This document shows positions 4,739-49,900 of a stretch of 64,000 nucleotides of DNA, piece after piece. The stretch is taken from contig NZ_KB899989.1 of assembly GCF_000378505.1 (NCBI RefSeq), positions 62,001 through 126,000 on the forward strand, given 5' to 3'. The translations under genes were made by a program, and so were the position numbers. How positions within the stretch are numbered: the first letter of the stretch is position 1; every line of letters begins with the position of its first letter. The notes below the pieces were generated by a model, which saw only the letters and a list, made by a program, of their open reading frames with translations, did not search any database and was not told the origin of the DNA. Source of the stretch: Modicisalibacter luteus DSM 23508 (GTDB taxonomy: Bacteria > Pseudomonadota > Gammaproteobacteria > Pseudomonadales > Halomonadaceae).

Positions 4739-6076
4739 ATGGACTTGTTCAGTCACGCCTCACAAGATAGCGCCCCTTTGGCATTCCGCATGCGACCACG
4801 GCGCCTCGACGACTATATCGGCCAACAGGCCCTGGTCGGGCCAGGCAAGCCACTGCGACGCATGGCCGAGAGCGGCACGCTCCGCTCCATGATACTTTGG
4901 GGCCCCCCCGGCGTTGGCAAGACGACACTTGCCGAGATTCTTGCTGATGCTTCGGAGGCCCAGCTCGAGCATCTTTCGGCGGTCATGGCCGGCGTCAAGG
5001 ACATTCGAGCCGCCGTGGAGCGTGCACGGGCCGCCCAAGGTCAGCAGCGCCCCACGGTGCTGTTCCTCGACGAAATCCATCGTCTCAACAAGAGCCAACA
5101 GGACGCTCTGTTGCCTCACGTGGAGTCGGGGCTGCTGACTCTCATTGGCGCCACCACCGAAAATCCTTCTTTCGAGGTCAATTCGGCGCTGCTCTCGCGA
5201 GCCCGCGTCTATGTGCTCAAGAAGCTCGACGAGGCCGACCTGATCGTTGTGATGCGGCGCGCCCTGCAAGATCGGGAGAGAGGCCTGGGCCAGCGCAATA
5301 TCCAGGTGGAGGATGAGGTGCTCGCCATCCTGGCACGAGCGAGCGCCGGTGATGCCAGACGCGCCCTCGGCCTGCTCGAGACGGCCTGCGACTTTACAGT
5401 GGAGGATCGGGGTCAGGAGCGCCTGATCAAGGATGCCTTGGCCGAGGTCATCGGCCACCAGGCCAGCGCCTTCGACAAGCAGGGCGATCATTATTACGAT
5501 CTACTGTCGGCGATCCACAAGTCGGTGCGTTCATCACGGCCCGATGCCGCACTACTGTACATGGCGCAGTTCATGCAGGGCGGCGGCGACCCACTGGATG
5601 TCATCCGTCGCCTGGCGGCCATCGCCTCGGAGGATGTCGGTAATGCCGAACCCCGTGCCCTGCCGCTGGTCATGGCCGCATGGGACGCTTACCTGCGCCT
5701 CGGCGATTACGAGGGTCAACGTGCCATCGCCCATGCCGCGATTCACCTGGCCGTGGCGCCCAAGAGCAACGCCATCGACCAGGCCTGGAAACGCGCCAAG
5801 GGCTTTGTGGCCGAACATCCCGATATCGAGGTACCAACGTATTTGCGCAATGCACCGACCCGACTCATGGCCTCGCTAGGTCATGGCGAGGGTTATCGCT
5901 ATGCGCACAACGAGCCCAACGGTTACCCGGCGGGCAGCGCCCATGACTGCTGGCCGGATCGGTTACCTCACATGAGATTCTTCGAACCCAGCGAGTACGG
6001 GCAGGAAAAACGTTTCAAACAGATGCTCGACTACCGCGCCGAACTGGACAACCAGGCAGACAACCAGGCCGGGTGA
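4739..6076 (+). CDS. rarA: replication-associated recombination protein RarA (AAA+ ATPase)
   Basis: AAA+ ATPase of the RarA/MgsA/WRNIP1 family that acts at stalled replication forks, interacting with SSB. From the ATG at 4739 it has 445 residues, opening with [17 protein letters not shown], then Walker A GPPGVGKT (about 55-62), Walker B LFLDEIHR (near 110), sensor GATTENPSF, and the family C-terminal tetramerisation region ending near LRNAPTRLM. An in-frame TTG at 4691 would add 16 residues but has no ribosome-binding site, and the family normally starts near MDLF. It is convergent with lolA and shares a terminator with it. Confidence 0.95.
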
Positions 6077-18525: not shown

Positions 18526-19947
<1,422 letters not shown>

Positions 19948-38192: not shown

Positions 38193-39743
38193 ATGCCCCT
38201 GTCCCGTCGTCGCTTCCTATCGCACAGCCTGCATGCCGGTGCCGCCTTCGGTGCCGTCAGTTTGCTTGGCGCCCCGGCAATCGTGCTTGCGGAGTCACGC
38301 CGGCCAGTTATTACCCACGGCATCATGAGCGGCGACATTCAGCCGGGACGCACCATGGTCTGGAGCCGTAGTGACCGCCCCGCGCAGATGATCCTCGAAC
38401 TCGCCGATAATCCGTCGTTCAAGGGAGCTCGGCGCCTGGTTGGCCCCACCGCCCTGCCGGTTGATGACTACACGACCAAACTCGACGTCACCGGACTTGG
38501 GGATATGGAATCCCTGCACTACCGTGTGCGCTATGCCGCACTGGGAGACGAACGTGCCCTGAGTGAACCAGTGATGGGCCGGCTACGCCTGCCACCATCC
38601 CAGTCACGCAATGTACGTTTCGTGTGGTCAGGGGATACTGTCGGCCAAGGTTGGGGCATCAATCCTGACCTGGGCGGAATGCGTATCTATGAGACGATGC
38701 GGCAGGTTCAGCCCGATTTCTTCATCCACTCAGGCGATACCATTTATGCCGATGGCCCGCTACAGGAGAGCGTCACGCTGGAGGATGGGACGACCTGGCG
38801 CAACATCGTGACTCCAGCCAAGGCCAAGGTCGCCGAGACACTGGAAGAGTATCGCGGGCAATACGCCTATAACCTGCTCGACGACAACTTGCGCCGCTTC
38901 AATGCCGAGGTGCCCATGTTCGCCCAGTGGGACGATCATGAGACGGTGAACAACTGGTACCCCGGCGAAGTGCTCGACGATCCGCGCTATACGGAAAAGA
39001 ACGTTTCTCTGCTCAATGCACGCGCACGGCGTGCCTTCATGGACTATATGCCGGTACGACAAACGGCAGATGCCCCGGATCGCCTGTATCGGCGCTTTAC
39101 CTATGGTCCCGACCTGGAGGTCTTTCGCCTCGACATGCGCAGCTATCGGGGTGCCAACTCCGACAACCGGCAGACTGCACCGGGTGGCAGCGCCGCCTTT
39201 CTCGGTGATGCACAATTGCAATGGTTACTGGACGGGCTACGCCAATCCCAAGCGACGTGGAAGATTATCGCCTCCGACATGCCGCTCGGGCTGGTGGTCA
39301 AGGATGGCGAGCGTTACGAGGCGGTAGCCAACGCTGAATCGGGACGGCCCTTGGGACGTGAACAGGAAATCGCTCGCCTGCTGGAGGGCCTGCACAAGGC
39401 CAACGTGCAAAACATCGTCTGGCTGACCGCCGACGTGCACTACACGGCCGCCCACCACTACTCCCCAGAGAGAGCAAGCTTCCAGAATTTCACGCCGTTC
39501 TGGGAGTTCGTCAGCGGTCCTCTCAACGCAGGTACGTTTGGACCTGGAGAGTTGGACGCGACCTTTGGCCCCGAGGCGGTCTTTTACAAGGCACCGCCAC
39601 CGGGACAGGCCAATTTGCCCCCATCGGCAGGATACCAGTTCTTTGGTCAGGTCGATTTTGATGCTGACTCGCGTGAGCTGACAGTGACACTGAAGGACAC
39701 CGCAGGCGCTTCCCTGTTCGAGAAGCGCCTGGCTCCATCTTAA
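38193..39743 (+). CDS. phoD: PhoD-family alkaline phosphatase/phosphodiesterase, Tat-exported
   Basis: 516 residues. Tat signal SRRRFLSHSL plus a hydrophobic stretch ending near ALA (residues 4-34), then the N-terminal PhoD domain (GIMSGDIQPGRTMVWSRSDR) and the metallophosphatase domain: WSGDTVGQG, FIHSGDTIYADGP, QWDDHETVNNWYPGE and WLTADVHYTAAHHYSP. PhoD enzymes release phosphate from mono- and diesters in the periplasm using Ca/Fe. AGGAGG lies just upstream of the ATG. The PhoB half-site array upstream agrees with this function. Confidence 0.92.
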   Translation: MPLSRRRFLSHSLHAGAAFGAVSLLGAPAIVLAESRRPVITHGIMSGDIQPGRTMVWSRSDRPAQMILELADNPSFKGARRLVGPTALPVDDYTTKLDVTGLGDMESLHYRVRYAALGDERALSEPVMGRLRLPPSQSRNVRFVWSGDTVGQGWGINPDLGGMRIYETMRQVQPDFFIHSGDTIYADGPLQESVTLEDGTTWRNIVTPAKAKVAETLEEYRGQYAYNLLDDNLRRFNAEVPMFAQWDDHETVNNWYPGEVLDDPRYTEKNVSLLNARARRAFMDYMPVRQTADAPDRLYRRFTYGPDLEVFRLDMRSYRGANSDNRQTAPGGSAAFLGDAQLQWLLDGLRQSQATWKIIASDMPLGLVVKDGERYEAVANAESGRPLGREQEIARLLEGLHKANVQNIVWLTADVHYTAAHHYSPERASFQNFTPFWEFVSGPLNAGTFGPGELDATFGPEAVFYKAPPPGQANLPPSAGYQFFGQVDFDADSRELTVTLKDTAGASLFEKRLAPS

Positions 39744-39794
39744 TGGAACACTCTATTTAATCGAGATTAAGCTACTGAAAATCATGGTTTTTTC

Positions 39795-39824
39795 TTGACG
39801 AAGCGAAGCGGCTACGACTAAAGT
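39795..39824 (+). promoter_or_regulatory. sigma70 promoter of the CsrB/RsmZ-like RNA
   Basis: TTGACG (39795-39800) and TAAAGT (39819-39824) are separated by 18 bp. The expected start of transcription is about 39831, just before the first hairpin of the RNA. There is no ORF with a ribosome-binding site directly downstream. Confidence 0.65.
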
Positions 39825-39830
39825 AAAAGC

Positions 39831-40018
39831 CACGGTGAGCAGCGGCCATGGAACGGCTGCCAGTTCAGGATTGTGCGCGATCAGGATGATCGAGACATGG
39901 GAATGTAGGCATCGAAGGGCAGGACGCCATCAACGCCAAGGATCCCCAGCAAGGCTTACCGTAATGCAGCACGTAGTACTGCAGGGCCCGGCCAGCAATG
40001 GCCGGGCCTAATTCGTTT
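39831..40018 (+). ncRNA. probable CsrA/RsmA-sequestering small RNA (CsrB/RsmZ type)
   Basis: About 188 nt from a sigma70-like promoter to a strong terminator. Six GGA motifs occur within 93 nt (39850, 39868, 39884, 39900, 39922, 39940), most preceded by A or CA. Several sit in hairpin loops: CGATC-AGGAT-GATCG (39878-39892), ACAT-GGGA-ATGT (39895-39906), GGC-AGGAC-GCC (39918-39928), and ATGGA inside a GCAGC/GCTGC stem (39839-39860). CAGGATG is the CsrB repeat consensus. This is the known layout of RNAs that titrate CsrA/RsmA. No GacA box was found upstream, so control by GacA is open. There are no coding features. Confidence 0.7.
39985..40017 (+). terminator. terminator of the CsrB/RsmZ-like RNA
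   Basis: GGCCCGGCCA (39985-39994) pairs with TGGCCGGGCC (39999-40008) around GCAA, followed by TAATTCGTTT. Confidence 0.85.
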
Positions 40019-40213
40019 GCCTCTCTACTCCACGATTTCCTGCATGCCGGCTGGGGTTTTCCTCGGTGGCGGCTCTAGTCATGCTGTGCCAGTCAAAAAG
40101 CTGGACTTTCTCATCATTAACGTAGGTTAGATTCCTGTCGTCGATTAGCGAGCGTTATTGCTACTCTATCAATGTCAAACGCCTCGCTTACAACAACACG
40201 CAGTGAGAAAATT

Positions 40214-40510
40214 ATGGCCATTTACGCTATCGCCTATGACCTGACCTTACCTCAAGAATACAACGGCTTTTACGAGTGCCTAGAGTCCTATCCTCACGTG
40301 CATGTCATGGACTCTTTCTGGCTGATCCAAGCAGACACCGAATCCGGAGAATTAAGGGATAGCCTGCTGCCATACATAAAAAGGGGAGATTCACTTTTCA
40401 TCAGCCGGATGAGTCAGGACTGGGCGGGTGCCGGTACGCAATGCGGAGACTGGCTCAAGGCGACCGACCGCCTGTGGCACAAGCCGGCCCAGGCATATGC
40501 CGTCAAATAA
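40214..40510 (+). CDS. SinR-family (Cas2-fold-like) small protein
   Basis: 98 residues from ATG 40214. MAIYAIAYDL at the start (a YxIxYDL strand followed by a charged turn), the DSFWLIQAD strand and a central GDSLFISRMSQDWAGAG resemble the small proteins annotated SinR family, whose ferredoxin-like fold is related to Cas2 and VapD nucleases. No cas1, other cas gene or repeat array is nearby, so this is not a CRISPR component. A longer start at 40172 lacks a ribosome-binding site. Function unknown. Confidence 0.6.
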   Translation: MAIYAIAYDLTLPQEYNGFYECLESYPHVHVMDSFWLIQADTESGELRDSLLPYIKRGDSLFISRMSQDWAGAGTQCGDWLKATDRLWHKPAQAYAVK

Positions 40511-40838: not shown

Positions 40839-40934
40839 TGGCGGAAGAGCGTGGGAGTCGAACCCACCAGGGACCGCTGGCAGCCCCTACCAGGTTTGAA
40901 GCCTGGCCGCCCCACCGGGGGTCGATCCTCTTCC
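40839..40934 (-). tRNA. selC: selenocysteine tRNA (anticodon TCA)
   Basis: 96 nt including an encoded CCA. The acceptor begins GGAAGAG and pairs with CTCTTCC. The anticodon stem is CCAGG/CCTGG with loop CTTCAAA (anticodon TCA at 40899-40897). The very long variable arm (GGGGCTGCCAGCGGTCCC) and the T-arm GTGGG-TTCGACT-CCCAC follow the E. coli selC plan. The eighth acceptor pair, normally formed in tRNASec, looks like G-G here, and the D-stem has one A-G. The gene lies 16 bp downstream of the selB stop, so it is probably processed from the same transcript. Confidence 0.95.
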
Positions 40935-40950: not shown

Positions 40951-42879
40951 CTAGTCGAACAGGTCATGTCGGCGAATCACATGATCATCACCGACACGTC
41001 GAGTGAACCCGATTCTATCAAAGAATTCAAGGATTTGAATCGCAAGTTTGCGTCCGGTGCCGATACAGTCACGGAAATCCGCAGCACGTGCGGCGCCATG
41101 ACGGGATTCCAGCTCCTTTACAATGCGAGCCAAGGATTCGACCGCTGGGGCCTCGAAGAAGTGATCCTTGCGGACCTGATAGAGCCGCCCAAGACGCGCA
41201 CAGGCCATCAGTGACTGACGCATCACCTGCTCATCAATCCCTTCAGCGGCGGCCATATCACGGACGCGAGGCGGCTCGAACGGCCTGGAAACAATCAACG
41301 GCTGGACTCGCTGCCATAGACGCTCGTCAGCCTCATCCAATGCCGCCTGGTGCCCAGGTAACGCTAGAAACGGTCCATACCGCTCGATCTCGCCTGCCTC
41401 GATCATGGCATTCAACAAGGGGCGGAAAAATGCCCCAGGCAGGCCAGGCATGACCTGCCGACGCAAGCGCTCACGCTCCGTCCCCAGCATGGAAGGCTCA
41501 CTTTCGTGATTGCGCTGCAGTGTCTCGAACGTTCTTGCTTTCAGGCTATCCAGGGCTTGGCGAGAAAAGGCCCTGGCCTGCCCCTGCACCGTGATGACCT
41601 GCCCTCCCAACGCCTCGACTCGTGCCGCCAGGTACTGCTGGTCGATATTGATGTTACGTGCCAGCATGCCGAGATCCAGCCCATCGGGCCACAGCGTCAA
41701 ACCAGTCTCCAGCGGACGGTCAAGGCGATAAGGCTTTCCTGTCTCTGCACATTCGGCCAAGGATGACAACCAGGTCAGTCGCTTGGGAGCACGCTGGCCG
41801 CGCCGCGGGGGGTCTCCATCAAGCACGATGCCGCCACCCAAGGTCGTTTGGCCGCCATGATCGCGAATCACGAAGCGATCGCCCAGGCAGGCGTGCACGG
41901 GCCGGTCCAGAACCAACTGGCCCAGCATTCTGTTACCGGGTTCCAGTCGTTGGCCTTCCAGCAGAGATACGCGCCCGGTCAGCCGCGCCACCCCCAAGTG
42001 AATGTGCACAGGGGTCCAATGCTTGAGTGCCGCCACACTGCCTAGCAGGGTAAGATCGACATCGACCCGCTGCAGCAGTGGTGTGTCCAGCGACTCTGCA
42101 ACCACCCAGCCGCCACGCACGATTGCATCGCGCTCCACCCCGCTGCCCGTCAGGTTGAGGGCCACCCTATCGCCCTGATGGGCCTGTTCGCTTTCGCGAT
42201 GCTGCCGCCGCAAGCTGCGTACTCGGGCGCGTACACCCGACGGTTCAAGGCGCAGCACATCATCCTGCCGCACGGTTCCGCTCAAGGCCGTTCCGGTCAC
42301 GACCAATCCTGCTCCGGTCTTGGTAAAGACACGATCCACCGCCAGACGAAATGCGCCCCAGGCCAGCGTTTCATGACGTTTGGCAGCCTGGGTCCACAGT
42401 GAATCGCGCAAGGCATCAATCCCTTCACCACTGCGGCTCGAGACGCGATATACAGGAGCCTCTGCCAGCGGAGTGGCCTCCAGCAACTGGCGAATGTCTT
42501 CTTCGACCCGATCAAGCCGAGTCGCATCCACCAGATCGCATTTGGTCAGCGCTACCTGTCCCTGCGACAGCCCCAGCAAGGTCAGGATTTGTACATGCTC
42601 GATGGTCTGCGGCATTACGCCATCATCGGCGGCGACCACCAACAACACGCTATCGATGCCCGCGCTACCGGCCAGCATGTTATGAATGAACTTTTCGTGA
42701 CCGGGCACGTCGACGAAGCCGAGTTCAATGTCCGACTCGACCTCGGGATAGGCAAACCCCGCCTCGATGGTCAGCCCACGCGCCTTTTCCTCCTTGAGAC
42801 GATCCGTGTCGACGCCGGTCAGACAGTGGATCAACGCGGTCTTGCCATGGTCGACATGTCCTGCCGTACCGACAATCAT
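40951..42879 (-). CDS. selB: selenocysteine-specific elongation factor SelB
   Basis: GTPase that carries Sec-tRNA to ribosomes stalled at a UGA with a SECIS hairpin. 642 residues: EF-Tu-like GTPase with GHVDHGKT (7-14), DVPGHEKF (57-64) and TKCD (112-115), beta-barrel domains II and III, and C-terminal winged helices (about 390-642) that bind the SECIS RNA. The ATG at 42879 has GGGAGGAG upstream and overlaps the selA stop as ATGA. It ends 16 bp before selC. Confidence 0.96.
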
Positions 42880-44342
42880 GTCTCCTCCCTAGTCCGGCTT
42901 GCGATGTAGTGCGACTTGAGTAGTTTGAGCTGGTCCACGAATTGCCGCTCCTGGGCTTCCCCCATCAGGCAACGCAAGTCGAGATGCAGTGCCCCGTCGC
43001 GCAGGCGGCCTATGACCGGCTTCGGCAGGCAACGGAAGGCCATTTCGAGACAGCGCAGCGCTCGCTCGCGCGCCTGGCGCTCTTGCGCCTGAGGCCGCCA
43101 GACCAAGGCACGGCTGGGCAGACGATCGACCGGTAGCGAGCCACTGCCGAGTTGGCTCATGCAGTCCTGCAGCGTCACATCGACATCGTCGAGCAACGTA
43201 CGAACAGAGGGAAGCAGCCTCTCGCCCAAGGCGGCAATGTCGACCTCAGGTCGGGTGAGCATGGCTAAGGCAGGGATGTCGCGCGCGGGTGTATCGCTGT
43301 CGCGGTACACACGCAGCGTCGCCTCGAGTGCAGCCAACATCAACTTGTCGAGCCGCAGCGCTCGCTTCAGCGGGTGTCGCTTGATGCGTTCGATCATCTC
43401 GCGCTTGCCGACGATGATGCCAGCTTGTGGTCCGCCCAGCAGTTTGTCACCACTGAAAGTGACCACATCGGCCCCAGCGGCAATGGTATCGCGCGGCAGG
43501 GCTTCGTAAGGCAGTCCTAGCGCCGCCAGGTCGGTCAGCGCCCCACTGCCCAGGTCGACCAAGAAGGGCACGCCATGCCGATGGGCAATCTCGGCGAGTT
43601 CGTGCTCGGGTACGCTCTTGGTGAAACCGGTGATAGCGTAGTTGGAGGTGTGAGCCTTGACGATCAGCCCGGTCTCGTCGTTGAGCGCCCCTTCAAAATC
43701 ACGTGCGTGGGTGCGGTTGGTCGCGCCGACCTCGTGCAAACTACAGCCTGCCGCCTGCATGATGTCGGGCATGCGAAACGCCCCGCCGATCTCGATCAAT
43801 TCGCCGCGAGAGATGACCGCCTCGCGGCCCGCCCCCAGCGCCCCTAGCGCCAGCACCACCGCCCCAGCGTTATTGTTGACCACGGTGGCGGCCTCGGCTC
43901 CGGTAAGCTCGCAGAGCAGGGACTCGACCAGCGTATCGCGATCTCCGCGCCCGCCGCTCTCCAGGTCGTACTCCAGGGCAATCGGATGACGCGCTGCCTC
44001 AGCCATGGCCTCGATGGCCGGCTCGGGCAATGGCGAACGCCCCAGGTTGGTATGAATCACCGTACCGGTCAGGTTGAAGACGGCGCGGCTGTTGGGCTGG
44101 GTCAGGGTGTCGAGGCGGGACACGCAGCGCTGTACGAGATCGCCGAACTCGATAGGCAACGAGTCGGCATCCAGCGCCTGATTCTGCAATCGCCGGCGCG
44201 CATCATCCAGCGTTTCGCGTACGGAACGACGCACCAGTGAACGGCTGTGTCGCTTGAGGGTATCTTGCAGGCTTGGGTCGGCCATCAAGGCGTCAACGGC
44301 AGGCAAGCGGCGTCTAACGTCCATTGTCGTGTTCATGTCCAT
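42876..44342 (-). CDS. selA: L-seryl-tRNA(Sec) selenium transferase SelA
   Basis: PLP-dependent decamer converting Ser-tRNASec to Sec-tRNASec with selenophosphate. 488 residues, slightly longer than E. coli SelA. Signature stretches are [17 protein letters not shown] (90-106), [15 protein letters not shown] (about 122-136), [12 protein letters not shown] and the PLP lysine Lys300 in [13 protein letters not shown]. The ATG at 44342 lacks a clear ribosome-binding site; Met3 or Met7 are alternatives. It lies 88 bp downstream of fdhE and is coupled to selB. Confidence 0.96.
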
Positions 44343-46981: not shown

Positions 46982-49900
46982 TTAGAGCTTCTCGACCCTG
47001 ACCAGGAACGACTTGAATTCCGGTGTCTGGGTATTGGCGTCACCGACGAAAGGCGTCAGCTCGTTGGTCAATCGCGCTTTCTTGGCCACCCCCTTGAAGC
47101 CCCAATGAATCGGAATTCCCACCTGATGTACCGTCTGACCGGCCACTTGCAGAGGTCGGATGCGCTTGGTGACCACGGCCACGGCATCGATGTAGCCCCG
47201 CTTGGAACTCACCCTGACGCGATCGCCGCGCTCGATACCCAACTCTTCGGCCAGTGTCGAACCGATTTCCACGAACTTCTCAGGCTGCATGATCGAGTTG
47301 AGCAACGCGTGCGTCGTCCAGAAGTGGAAGTGCTCGGTCAGGCGATAGGTCGTGGCTGCATGCGGGAACTCCTCAAAGGTTCCGAAGTTTTCCCGGTCCA
47401 CCTCGAATACCCTGGCGGCCGGATTGTTCTTGGCCAGCGGGTTATCGGGATGCAGCGGGTTCATGCCGATCGGCGACTCAAACGGCTCGTAGTGCTCGGG
47501 GAACGGGCCTTCCGCCATACGATCCCTGGCAAAAAGTTGCCCACGCCCGGTCTGGTTCATGATGAACGGCCCCAGACCGGCAGACGGCGGCGTCTGCTTG
47601 GGGAAGTCCGGCACATCGGCCCCGACCCACCGGCTACCGTTCCACCAGATCAACGCCTTGTCCTGCGACCACGGGGTGCCGTCAGGGCGTGCCGAGGCCC
47701 GGTTGTAGAGAATGCGTCGGTTGACCGGCCAGGACCAGGCCCAGCCCAGTGTCATGCCGATCCCGTAAGGGTCGGAGTTGTCGCGCCGGGCCATCTGGTT
47801 GCCTTCCTCGGTCCAGGCGCCCGAGTAGATCCAGCAACCGCAGGAAGTACTGCCATCTGCCCGCAGCGCCCCGAAGTCCGGCAACTGTTCGCCAGCACGA
47901 CACAGCAGGTTGCCGTTTTCGTCGTGGACATCCTGAAGCGCCCAGCCGTTGTACTCGCGCGCGAGTTCGGAAGGCCCCGGTGAATCAGGCCGCCGGTAGG
48001 GCCAGGTCAGGTTGAGTATCGGATCGGGAAATACGCCTCCTTCCTCGCGGTACATGTACTGCAGGCGGTGGAATAGTCCTCCCAGGATCTCCACGTCCGG
48101 CCGCGCCTCTCCCGGTGGCGGCGCCGCGGCCCAATGCCATTGCAGCCAACGAGCGCTGTTGACGATGGCCCCGTCCTCTTCGGCGAAGCACGTGGTGGGC
48201 AACCGGAATACCTCGGTCTGGATCTCTTCCGGATTCACGGAATGGTACTCTCCGTGATCTTTCCAGAACTCTGCGGTTTCCGTCGCCAGAGGATCCATGA
48301 CCACCAGGTACTTCAGGTTGGACAAGGCAGCGGTGACCTTGGCCTTGTGCGGGAACGACGCCAGTGGATTGAAGCCCTGACAAAAGTAACCGTTTACCTC
48401 GCCGAGGCTCATCCGATGGAATGTATGCAGTACATCGTAGAGATCCGCCTTGAGCTTGGGCAGCCAGTCGTAGCACCAGTTGTTGGCCTCGGTCGCCGCA
48501 TCGCCGAACCAGGACTTCATCAGGCTGACATGGAACCGCTCGTAATGGCGCCAGTAAGACACCTCATCAGGCAGCAAAGGCTGACGCACACGCTCTTCTA
48601 TGTAGGCCCGGTAATCCTGCTCCTCGGCCTTCGCCAGGCTCATGTAACCCGGCAACAGGTTCGAGAGCAGCCCCAGGTCGGTGAGACCCTGAATGTTGGA
48701 GTGACCACGTAGGGCATTGACCCCGCCACCGAGCATGCCCATGTTGCCCAGCAGCAGCTGGACTATGGCCCCGGTACGGATGATCTGCGAACCGATCGAG
48801 TGCTGTGTCCACCCCAGCGCGTACAGGATGGTCATGGTCTGACCGGTCCTGGCCGTCTCGGCGATCATGTCCCAGACACGCTGTATCTTGTGGCGAGGCG
48901 TCCCACAGACAGTTTCCACCATATCCAGCGTGTAGCGGCTGTAATGCTGGCGCATCAGCTGATATACGCAGCGCGGATGCTGTAGAGTATCGTCGCGCCG
49001 GGCGAAGCCCTGTTCGTCGACCTCGTAGTGCCAGGTCTCCTTGTCGTATTGCCCGGCCGTTGCATCAAACCCTGTGAACAGGCCATCTTCGAAACCGAAT
49101 TCCTCACGCACGATCAGCGCAGCATCGGTGTAGTTGCTTACGTACTCATGGTGGATCTGGTCGGTCTCGATCAGATAATTGATCAGCCCACCCAAGAACA
49201 TAATGTCCGTGCCGGTGCGTATTTCGGCATGAAAGTCTGCAACTGCGCCGGTACGCGTAAAGCGCGGATCGACGGAAATCAGACGAGCATTATTGCGATA
49301 TTTGGCCTCCATGACCCAGCGGAAACCCACGGGATGCGCCTCTGCCGAGTTGCCCCCCATAGAGAGAATCAAATCAGCATTGCGGATATCGACCCAGTGA
49401 TTGGTCATGGCACCGCGACCGAATGTTGGGGCAAGACCTGCCACCGTCGGTCCGTGTCAGACGCGCGCCTGGTTGTCGAAGGCCAGCATGCCGAGGCTAC
49501 GTACCACCTTGTGGGTCAGCGTAGCTGTCTCATTGGACGACGCCGAGGCCGCCAGGAAGCCCGTAGTCAACCAATGATTGACCGTGTTGCCATTCTCGTC
49601 CTGAGTCACGAAATTGGCGTCGCGATCGTCCTTCATGTGCCGGGCGATACGGTTCAGCGCCTCGTTCCAGCTGATCCGCTTCCACTCGTTGCTGCCCGGC
49701 TCGCGCACCAGTGGGTGCGACAGGCGTGAGCGACTCTTGATGAAATCGAGCACGCCGGCCCCCTTGGGACACAGCGAACCCCGGCTGACCGGATGGTCCG
49801 GATCGCCCTCGACATGGTAAATGTCGTCGATGTTGTTGATGCTGGCATCGCCACGGCTGTACAGCAGCAAGCCGCACCCGACCGAACAATAGGTACAGGT

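Follow-up and report, generated by a model that had tools for sequence, protein, structure and literature searches.

Type I and type II GGA-rich RNAs of Modicisalibacter luteus: a predicted family of CsrA-sequestering RNAs with two promoter classes

A GGA-rich stretch between phoD and a small Cas2/VapD-like gene

The window analysed here is a 64,000-nt stretch of the Modicisalibacter luteus DSM 23508 genome (G000 in our set). Between phoD (38193-39743), whose assignment in the sequence-only reading is borne out by a Pfam PhoD match of 332 bits, and a small gene at 40214-40510 lies the stretch 39831-40018, for which the same reading had proposed a CsrB/RsmZ-type RNA between a sigma-70-like promoter and a strong terminator. 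A promoter-like pair is there: a consensus scan of the + strand finds TTGACG-18-TAAAGT at 39795-39824, with 9 of 12 matches, one such pair where shuffles give 0.4. The terminator stood only in part; an 11-pair intrinsic-terminator-like hairpin occupies 39984-40009 (+) and recurs in homologues as helix 8 of the alignment, with 94.1% of cells paired, but the T tract behind it is weak (AATTCGTTTG). The stretch had also been said to code for nothing, and we rejected a protein-coding origin on either strand because there is no ORF of 60 amino acids with a start codon and because copies differ by non-triplet indels; stop-free frames of ~70 codons do run across the stretch.

All six GGA motifs that had been counted lie within 39831-40018, at 39850, 39868, 39884, 39900, 39922 and 39940. 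Six ANGGA/AGGA exceed the mean of 2.1 in dinucleotide shuffles, but the density is only modestly unusual (p = 0.017). Other parts of the window reach a similar raw GGA density (7 at 18742, for instance), so density alone is insufficient for the claim, and conservation has to carry it. The 188 nt of the + strand fold with a z of -3.4, none of 200 shuffles being equally stable, and the minus strand folds more stably still (z = -6.1).

Model R1 (17 sequences, 175 positions) places a type I GGA-rich RNA, a predicted CsrA decoy, at 39831-40007 on the + strand with 163 bits, the next match in the window having 10 bits; the window copy belongs to the R1 training set. With R3, which was built without the window copy, the RNA is the top match in the window at 17.8 bits (E = 0.006), followed by one of 12.4 bits. 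R2 gives the RNA 29.1 bits and also scored the reverse of the terminator, at 19.1 bits; since it scores reversed or bare terminators, R2 rewards terminators as such.

The small gene downstream had been called SinR-like, a label that misleads. Its 98-residue product matches no Pfam family at E 0.001, has weak similarity to CRISPR_Cas2 (E = 0.013, under the cut-off), and has a predicted fold that is Cas2/VapD-like (pLDDT 79 with 12 sequences; best PDB match Cas2 4es3, E = 7.8e-4; VapD at rank 31). Seven copies of this gene are present in M. luteus, among them those at 40214-40510 (+) of the window, L114:3952-4278 and L117:6182-6442, and three copies have a type I RNA no more than 3 kb away (on contigs C1, C20 and C5). 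The link between gene and RNA is a candidate one, and their proximity may reflect function or shared duplication. Beside the RNA are also the selenocysteine genes tRNA-Sec, selB and selA (40843-40934 and 40951-44342, both on the - strand), with a SECIS_3 element farther along at 49404-49462 (-).

Conserved structure and GGA motifs in the genus

A DNA search of 97 genomes, that of M. luteus included, gave matches in nine, all of the same genus; at most six candidates per genome were scored, and six matches came from M. luteus itself. The resulting alignment holds 17 copies, including the window copy, from nine genomes of the genus, again with M. luteus among them, and 95.3% of its 731 cells at paired positions are paired. 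In the consensus, a closing helix surrounds four hairpins and an inner stem, and is followed by one hairpin and then the terminator. The closing helix pairs 39834-39839 with 39955-39960 (+), has changes on both sides in three of its six pairs, and is paired in 97.1% of cells; its sequence is roughly ACGGTRAGC/GCTTACC in one group of copies and GCGAAGAGC/CTCTTCG in another.

Display of GGA in hairpin loops, as proposed earlier, holds for four of the six motifs in this consensus, all on the + strand. The hairpin at 39842-39860 has the GGA of 39850 in its loop and is paired in 100% of cells. That at 39863-39876, with the GGA of 39868 in its loop, is paired in 95.6% of cells and is weak in the window copy, where a U-U mismatch interrupts it and the copy's own minimum-energy fold lacks it. 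The clearest hairpin of the sequence-only reading, CGATC-AGGAT-GATCG, was located at 39878-39892 around the GGA of 39884; it is paired in 100% of cells, with two of its five pairs doubly changed. A further hairpin, GGC-AGGAC-GCC at 39918-39928, is paired in 98% of cells and holds the GGA of 39922. The remaining two motifs are single-stranded in the consensus, as TGGGA at 39898-39902 (GGA at 39900) and AAGGA at 39938-39942 (GGA at 39940). Between multiloop and terminator, the hairpin at 39966-39982 (+) is paired in 91.2% of cells and has two pairs doubly changed.

The stems covary, as had been asked of a structured RNA: 55 cells carry double changes against 20.3 in shuffles, a value reached by none of 500 shuffles, and slid controls give 3-12. 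Because one alignment served both to derive the structure and to test it, this test leans towards itself. Where pairs vary, 55 cells are G-U and 11 are A-C, a bias that speaks for the + strand, and on this ground we rejected a minus-strand RNA despite the better z of that strand.

Loss of the GGA motifs among relatives was the result by which the decoy proposal was to fall, and the motifs are kept: from the first to the sixth, in 12, 16, 17, 17, 15 and 17 of the 17 copies. The five copies in which the first GGA loop is lost are from G004, G005, G007, G012 and G013, and in two of the 17 copies the GGA-density test gives p > 0.05. Loops and linkers around the GGA vary, and few features are as well conserved as the GGA loops. 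The counterparts of the window copy in G001 and G009 adjoin the same small gene, and their upstream flank reads like the end of phoD.

Two RNA classes, their upstream sites and csrA paralogues

Seven clear type I copies are present in the M. luteus genome (R1 90-179 bits), five of the other six having 77-82% identity to the window copy where aligned. Across a sample of the family, 17 of 151 genomes (M. luteus included) have an R1 match at E 0.01 or better. Several weak R1 matches represent another but related class, here called type II, whose GGA hairpins are like GAGCAGGACGCTC and whose linkers are like CCAAGGATGC. Model R2, built from 10 type II sequences, seven of them from M. luteus, has 22 matches in that genome at E 0.01 or better. 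When R1 and R2 matches of at least 30 bits are taken together and overlaps merged, there are 25 distinct loci, comprising seven type I and 18 others (22 loci at 45 bits). Read singly, the 18 type II loci have 5-15 ANGGA each, 60 nt upstream included, and 15 of them have a T-rich tail after the last hairpin; C17:9407 has a weak tail and C1:193029 none, and at C1:416371, where the matched part ends within a longer stretch, no tail was seen. The type II alignment has 19 cells with double changes against 5.5 in shuffles, with none of 500 shuffles reaching this, and five type II RNAs folded singly have z values of -1.2 to -2.8.

R1 and R2 come mostly from M. luteus and near relatives, so the counts they give elsewhere are lower bounds. 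As a control for this bias, R3 was built solely on ten sequences drawn from five other genomes with one csrA each (G002, G003, G006, G008 and G011). It has 19 matches in M. luteus, 17 distinct after merging, and recovers 17 of the 18 type II loci there. The genus is represented by 14 genomes in all, and the R3 counts in the others, which favour its own five training genomes and carry no correction for phylogeny, are 14 in G009 (13 distinct), 13 in G001, 8 in G011, 7 each in G003 and G008, 4 in G002, 3 in G006 and 1 each in G004, G007 and G012, with no matches in G005, G010 and G013. Four of the eight in G011 fall within one short stretch. R2 has no match at E 0.01 in 13 genomes of other families in the order.

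Type II RNAs occur in clusters in M. luteus (on C32, C7, C24 and C4), and G009 has four of them in ~3 kb (C30:5246-8334). A longer, divergent GGA-rich RNA-like stretch with 12 ANGGA (L117:577-763; C5:254076-254262, - strand) has a type I copy ~2.8 kb away; R2 gives the stretch 31.8 bits and R3 has no match there at E 0.01. An uncounted candidate at C4:47250-47396 (+; L141) has 4 ANGGA and three GGA hairpins, preceded by TCTTACA and by a TTAACCTAGG site. Four other candidates were rejected as family RNAs: C17:55308 and C11:89462 are terminators with few or no ANGGA, C4:49579(-) is antisense to a counted RNA, and a locus of G041 (L044) has a weak R1/R2 match and 3 ANGGA. Pattern scans of wider genome contigs and of viral contigs were too permissive, the former supplying at least 119 matched loci; among 10 of these R1 scored nothing above 10.3 bits, and on one such locus R2 had no match. 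Plasmid sequences had no match to the RNA region, and when they were compared with the cassette of csrA and RNA described below, none of 38 records covered 80% of it, the best 10 of the 38 covering csrA-like parts only.

A genome with CsrA decoys should contain CsrA, and csrA is present in all 58 genomes searched; M. luteus also has, on C4, a regulator of the UvrY/SirA/GacA family (NF007018, 290 bits, cut-off 280). Its csrA product is identical at 53 of 60 residues to the H. hydrothermalis counterpart. Three csrA genes are found in M. luteus, three in G001 and two in G009, and one in each of the other eleven genomes of the genus. Two of the three in M. luteus stand in tandem on C12 beside a type II RNA that would be transcribed away from them (L073 3927-5069), with a perfect TGTAAG-N6-CTTACA between genes and RNA. 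This arrangement recurs in G001, again with a csrA pair (C23; L074 ~4867-5977), and in G009 the divergent RNA lies beside one csrA (C28; L075 ~5579-6033). Flanking frames on the csrA side look alike in the three genomes, and those on the RNA side differ in G009; one csrA pair may travel with its own decoy RNA. The three genomes with extra csrA have the highest numbers of predicted decoy loci within the genus, together 57 by R1/R2, a total equalled by one of 364 possible triples. The number of csrA genes correlates with that of RNA loci across the genus (Spearman 0.73, n = 14), a value that is uncorrected for kinship and for which R1/R2 lean towards the multi-csrA genomes. Decoys and CsrA paralogues may thus have expanded together.

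TGTAAG-N6-CTTACA is the GacA box, which is common but not universal upstream of CsrA-sequestering small RNAs. Distances given here are counted from the model start, that of C24:15869 having been moved by 37 nt to the R3 start. Nine of the 18 type II copies have a GacA-box-like site (up to 3 mismatches) at -71+-1, where the best bin reached at most 2 in 300 shuffles, and three more have perfect boxes at -89 to -94, giving 12 of 18 in total. Most type II copies thus look GacA-controlled, as far as their upstream regions predict. In the 160-250 nt upstream of the window copy there is no GacA box at up to 3 mismatches, and the sole match among the seven type I copies, with 3 mismatches, is at -44 of the copy on C2. 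Genome-wide, the pattern with at most 1 mismatch is found 23 times forward and 19 times reverse; its reversal, as a control, gives 17 and 12. Four of eight exact places are before counted type II RNAs and one is before the second csrA of the pair; no RNA was found at the exact places C1:11958, C1:196348 and C14:17418. The region C1:187000-199000 (L110) has perfect palindromic boxes at C1:193247 and C1:196348, the first of which precedes a type II RNA.

A second element, the dyad TTAAC-N4-GTTAA, is found upstream of both classes. With up to 2 mismatches it lies at -46+-1 in eight of the 18 type II copies (best bin at most 2 in 300 shuffles), and between -74 and -79 in five of the seven type I copies of M. 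luteus, a zone chosen after an earlier look. The type I peak is at -79+-1, with four of seven copies (300 shuffles: mean 0.53, maximum 2), and the window copy, in which the dyad TTAATCGAGATTAA is at 39757-39770 (-74) with 2 mismatches and is a candidate activator site, falls outside this peak. Another dyad, TTAACGTAGGTTAG, is located at 40117-40130, between the RNA and the Cas2-like ORF; no other place in the window matches the pattern with 1 mismatch or fewer, 0.27 such matches are expected, and 23 of 100 shuffles also have one. Control counts for the dyad are 9 and 5 against 4 and 2. The exact dyad YTAACNNNRGTTAR occurs at 10 places in the genome, three of them in front of these RNAs; seven are elsewhere, so a regulator that bound it, if there is one, would probably have other targets. 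A -10-like hexamer stands near -10 in about half of the type II regions, and counted from such hexamers the dyad would be centred at about -41 in type II and about -72 in type I, some three helical turns apart. By the usual spacing rules, such positions would be compatible with a CRP/FNR-type activator. The type I dyad may be a candidate site for an activator other than GacA, although it is weak in the window copy.

Alternative explanations and proposed titration of CsrA

Two alternatives give the RNA another function. It could be a trans-acting small RNA that works by base-pairing (Hfq- or ProQ-type), with incidental GGA motifs; the promoter-like and terminator-like signals of its own would fit this, and there is a weak match, on the opposite strand, to isrJ, an Hfq RNA (18.6 bits, cut-off 37). 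A base-pairing RNA would not lead one to expect that GGA loops rank among the most conserved features while the loops and linkers around them vary, or that a type II RNA adjoins csrA paralogues, and we give this explanation a slim chance. A slightly slimmer one goes to a cis-acting leader or untranslated region, belonging to the Cas2-like gene or extending from phoD, that is bound by CsrA in place rather than being a free decoy. Two other type I copies also have a paralogue of the downstream gene no farther than 3 kb away, which speaks for a leader, as does the dyad between RNA and gene; against it, a terminator-like hairpin that is kept in homologues stands ahead of the gene, and of the seven Cas2-like genes only three are that close to a type I RNA.

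The least probable of the three alternatives, and a very improbable one, is that these loci are a dispersed repeat or mobile element of the REP/MITE kind and not a gene family. Such an element could account for the seven type I copies scattered over one genome and for the several type II clusters. Five of the six other type I copies, however, are only 77-82% identical to the window copy, so the copies are not recent, and paired structure has been kept through compensatory changes; moreover, several copies have promoter motifs at a shared position, and the G001 and G009 counterparts are beside the same small gene, with an upstream flank that resembles the end of phoD.

CsrB/RsmZ RNAs titrate CsrA dimers away from mRNAs. 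We consider it very probable that 39831-40007 is likewise a CsrA-sequestering decoy RNA, as predicted from its covarying structure, the conserved GGA loops, the paralogues, the GacA-box-like sites of type II, the csrA paralogues beside one RNA, and the joint presence of CsrA and a GacA/UvrY-family regulator. We propose that a + strand small RNA of ~180 nt would be transcribed independently from its own promoter and would fold as a multiloop closed by the long-range helix, with GGA presented in four loops and two single-stranded stretches. The exposed GGA motifs would bind CsrA dimers, the level of free CsrA would fall, and mRNAs bound by CsrA would be released. Most of the type II set would act when GacA is active, and the dyad-bearing type I copies would act when the putative dyad regulator is active, such that different signals feed one CsrA pool through two promoter classes. 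Whether the whole amounts to a hyper-expanded titration system, in which ~25 decoys of two types, three CsrA proteins and two promoter classes sum many environmental inputs into a single analogue quantity, the level of free CsrA, we regard as an evenly balanced question. If experimentally confirmed, ~25 decoys in one genome would be unusually many and would offer a test bed for why redundant decoys multiply, be it for dosage, for separate inputs or for specificity towards CsrA paralogues; the idea of separate inputs can be tested directly by setting GacA-box promoters against dyad-only ones.

By sequence, these RNAs are a family new to Rfam, and their functional kind is already known; what is unusual is the number of loci and the two promoter classes. 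At its cut-offs, Rfam finds nothing on the RNA stretch, where two weak matches appear up to E 10. The CsrB/RsmZ-type membership suggested from sequence was not recovered as a Csr/Rsm match at the gathering cut-off, PrrB_RsmZ giving 11 bits against a cut-off of 44 (E = 4.1). None of the 25 loci in M. luteus reaches the Rfam Csr/Rsm cut-offs (RF00166, RF00018, RF00195), and we therefore rejected a known Rfam family for the window RNA and for these loci. The best RF00166 match in that genome (15.8 bits) is elsewhere than the window RNA; among 58 genomes the RF00166 cut-off is passed in one, G080, of another family. Type I copies of G004, G007 and G012 have weak RF00166 matches of 15-20 bits, and such matches also occur in five of 14 control genomes and so are little evidence. 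One type II RNA of G003 matches CsrB at 21.3 bits (cut-off 71, E = 0.054). The best explanation is an RNA outside the Rfam families with a predicted function like that of CsrB/RsmZ.

Among the closest known systems are RsmZ/PrrB, RsmY and RsmX of Pseudomonas and Azotobacter, which are also short RNAs with GGA hairpin loops, sequester RsmA/CsrA (here a predicted function) and have GacA-box-like sites, as do 12 of the 18 type II copies. The RNAs described here differ in their long-range closing helix, in their ~25 loci, in the window copy being under the Rfam cut-off, and in the type I promoters, where the GacA box is missing from the place it takes in type II and five of seven copies have another dyad. 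In the parts of the sources available to us, the rsm genes cloned from P. syringae are 112-132 bp (PMC6715622), and A. vinelandii has RsmZ1-7 with RsmY1-2 (PMC7366521) or RsmZ1-7 and RsmY (PMC4824345); its nine are the highest count for one species in the examined parts of a 2020 review table (PMC7366521). The same table gives GacS-GacA and CsrA for Halomonas anticariensis and enters its decoy RNA as "Unknown" (PMC7366521), and the accessible literature on Csr/Rsm RNAs of Halomonas or Halomonadaceae, in which subscription journals are mostly outside coverage, yielded no report of such RNAs. CsrB/CsrC of Enterobacteria and Pf1-3 of Pseudoalteromonas are likewise GGA-rich decoy RNAs, and differ in that M. 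luteus has many more loci and the window RNA has no Rfam CsrB match. For Pf2 and Pf3, a prediction based on promoters, terminators and GGA motifs was borne out by gel shift (PMC11882849). Pf1-3 have 9-25 GGA per RNA, against six in the window copy. P. syringae DC3000 similarly combines several CsrA paralogues with several decoys, namely five paralogues and seven decoys (RsmX1-5, RsmY and RsmZ; PMC6715622), a set second only to the nine of A. vinelandii in the literature covered here; M. luteus differs in that its predicted decoys exceed that number more than threefold, with three csrA genes.
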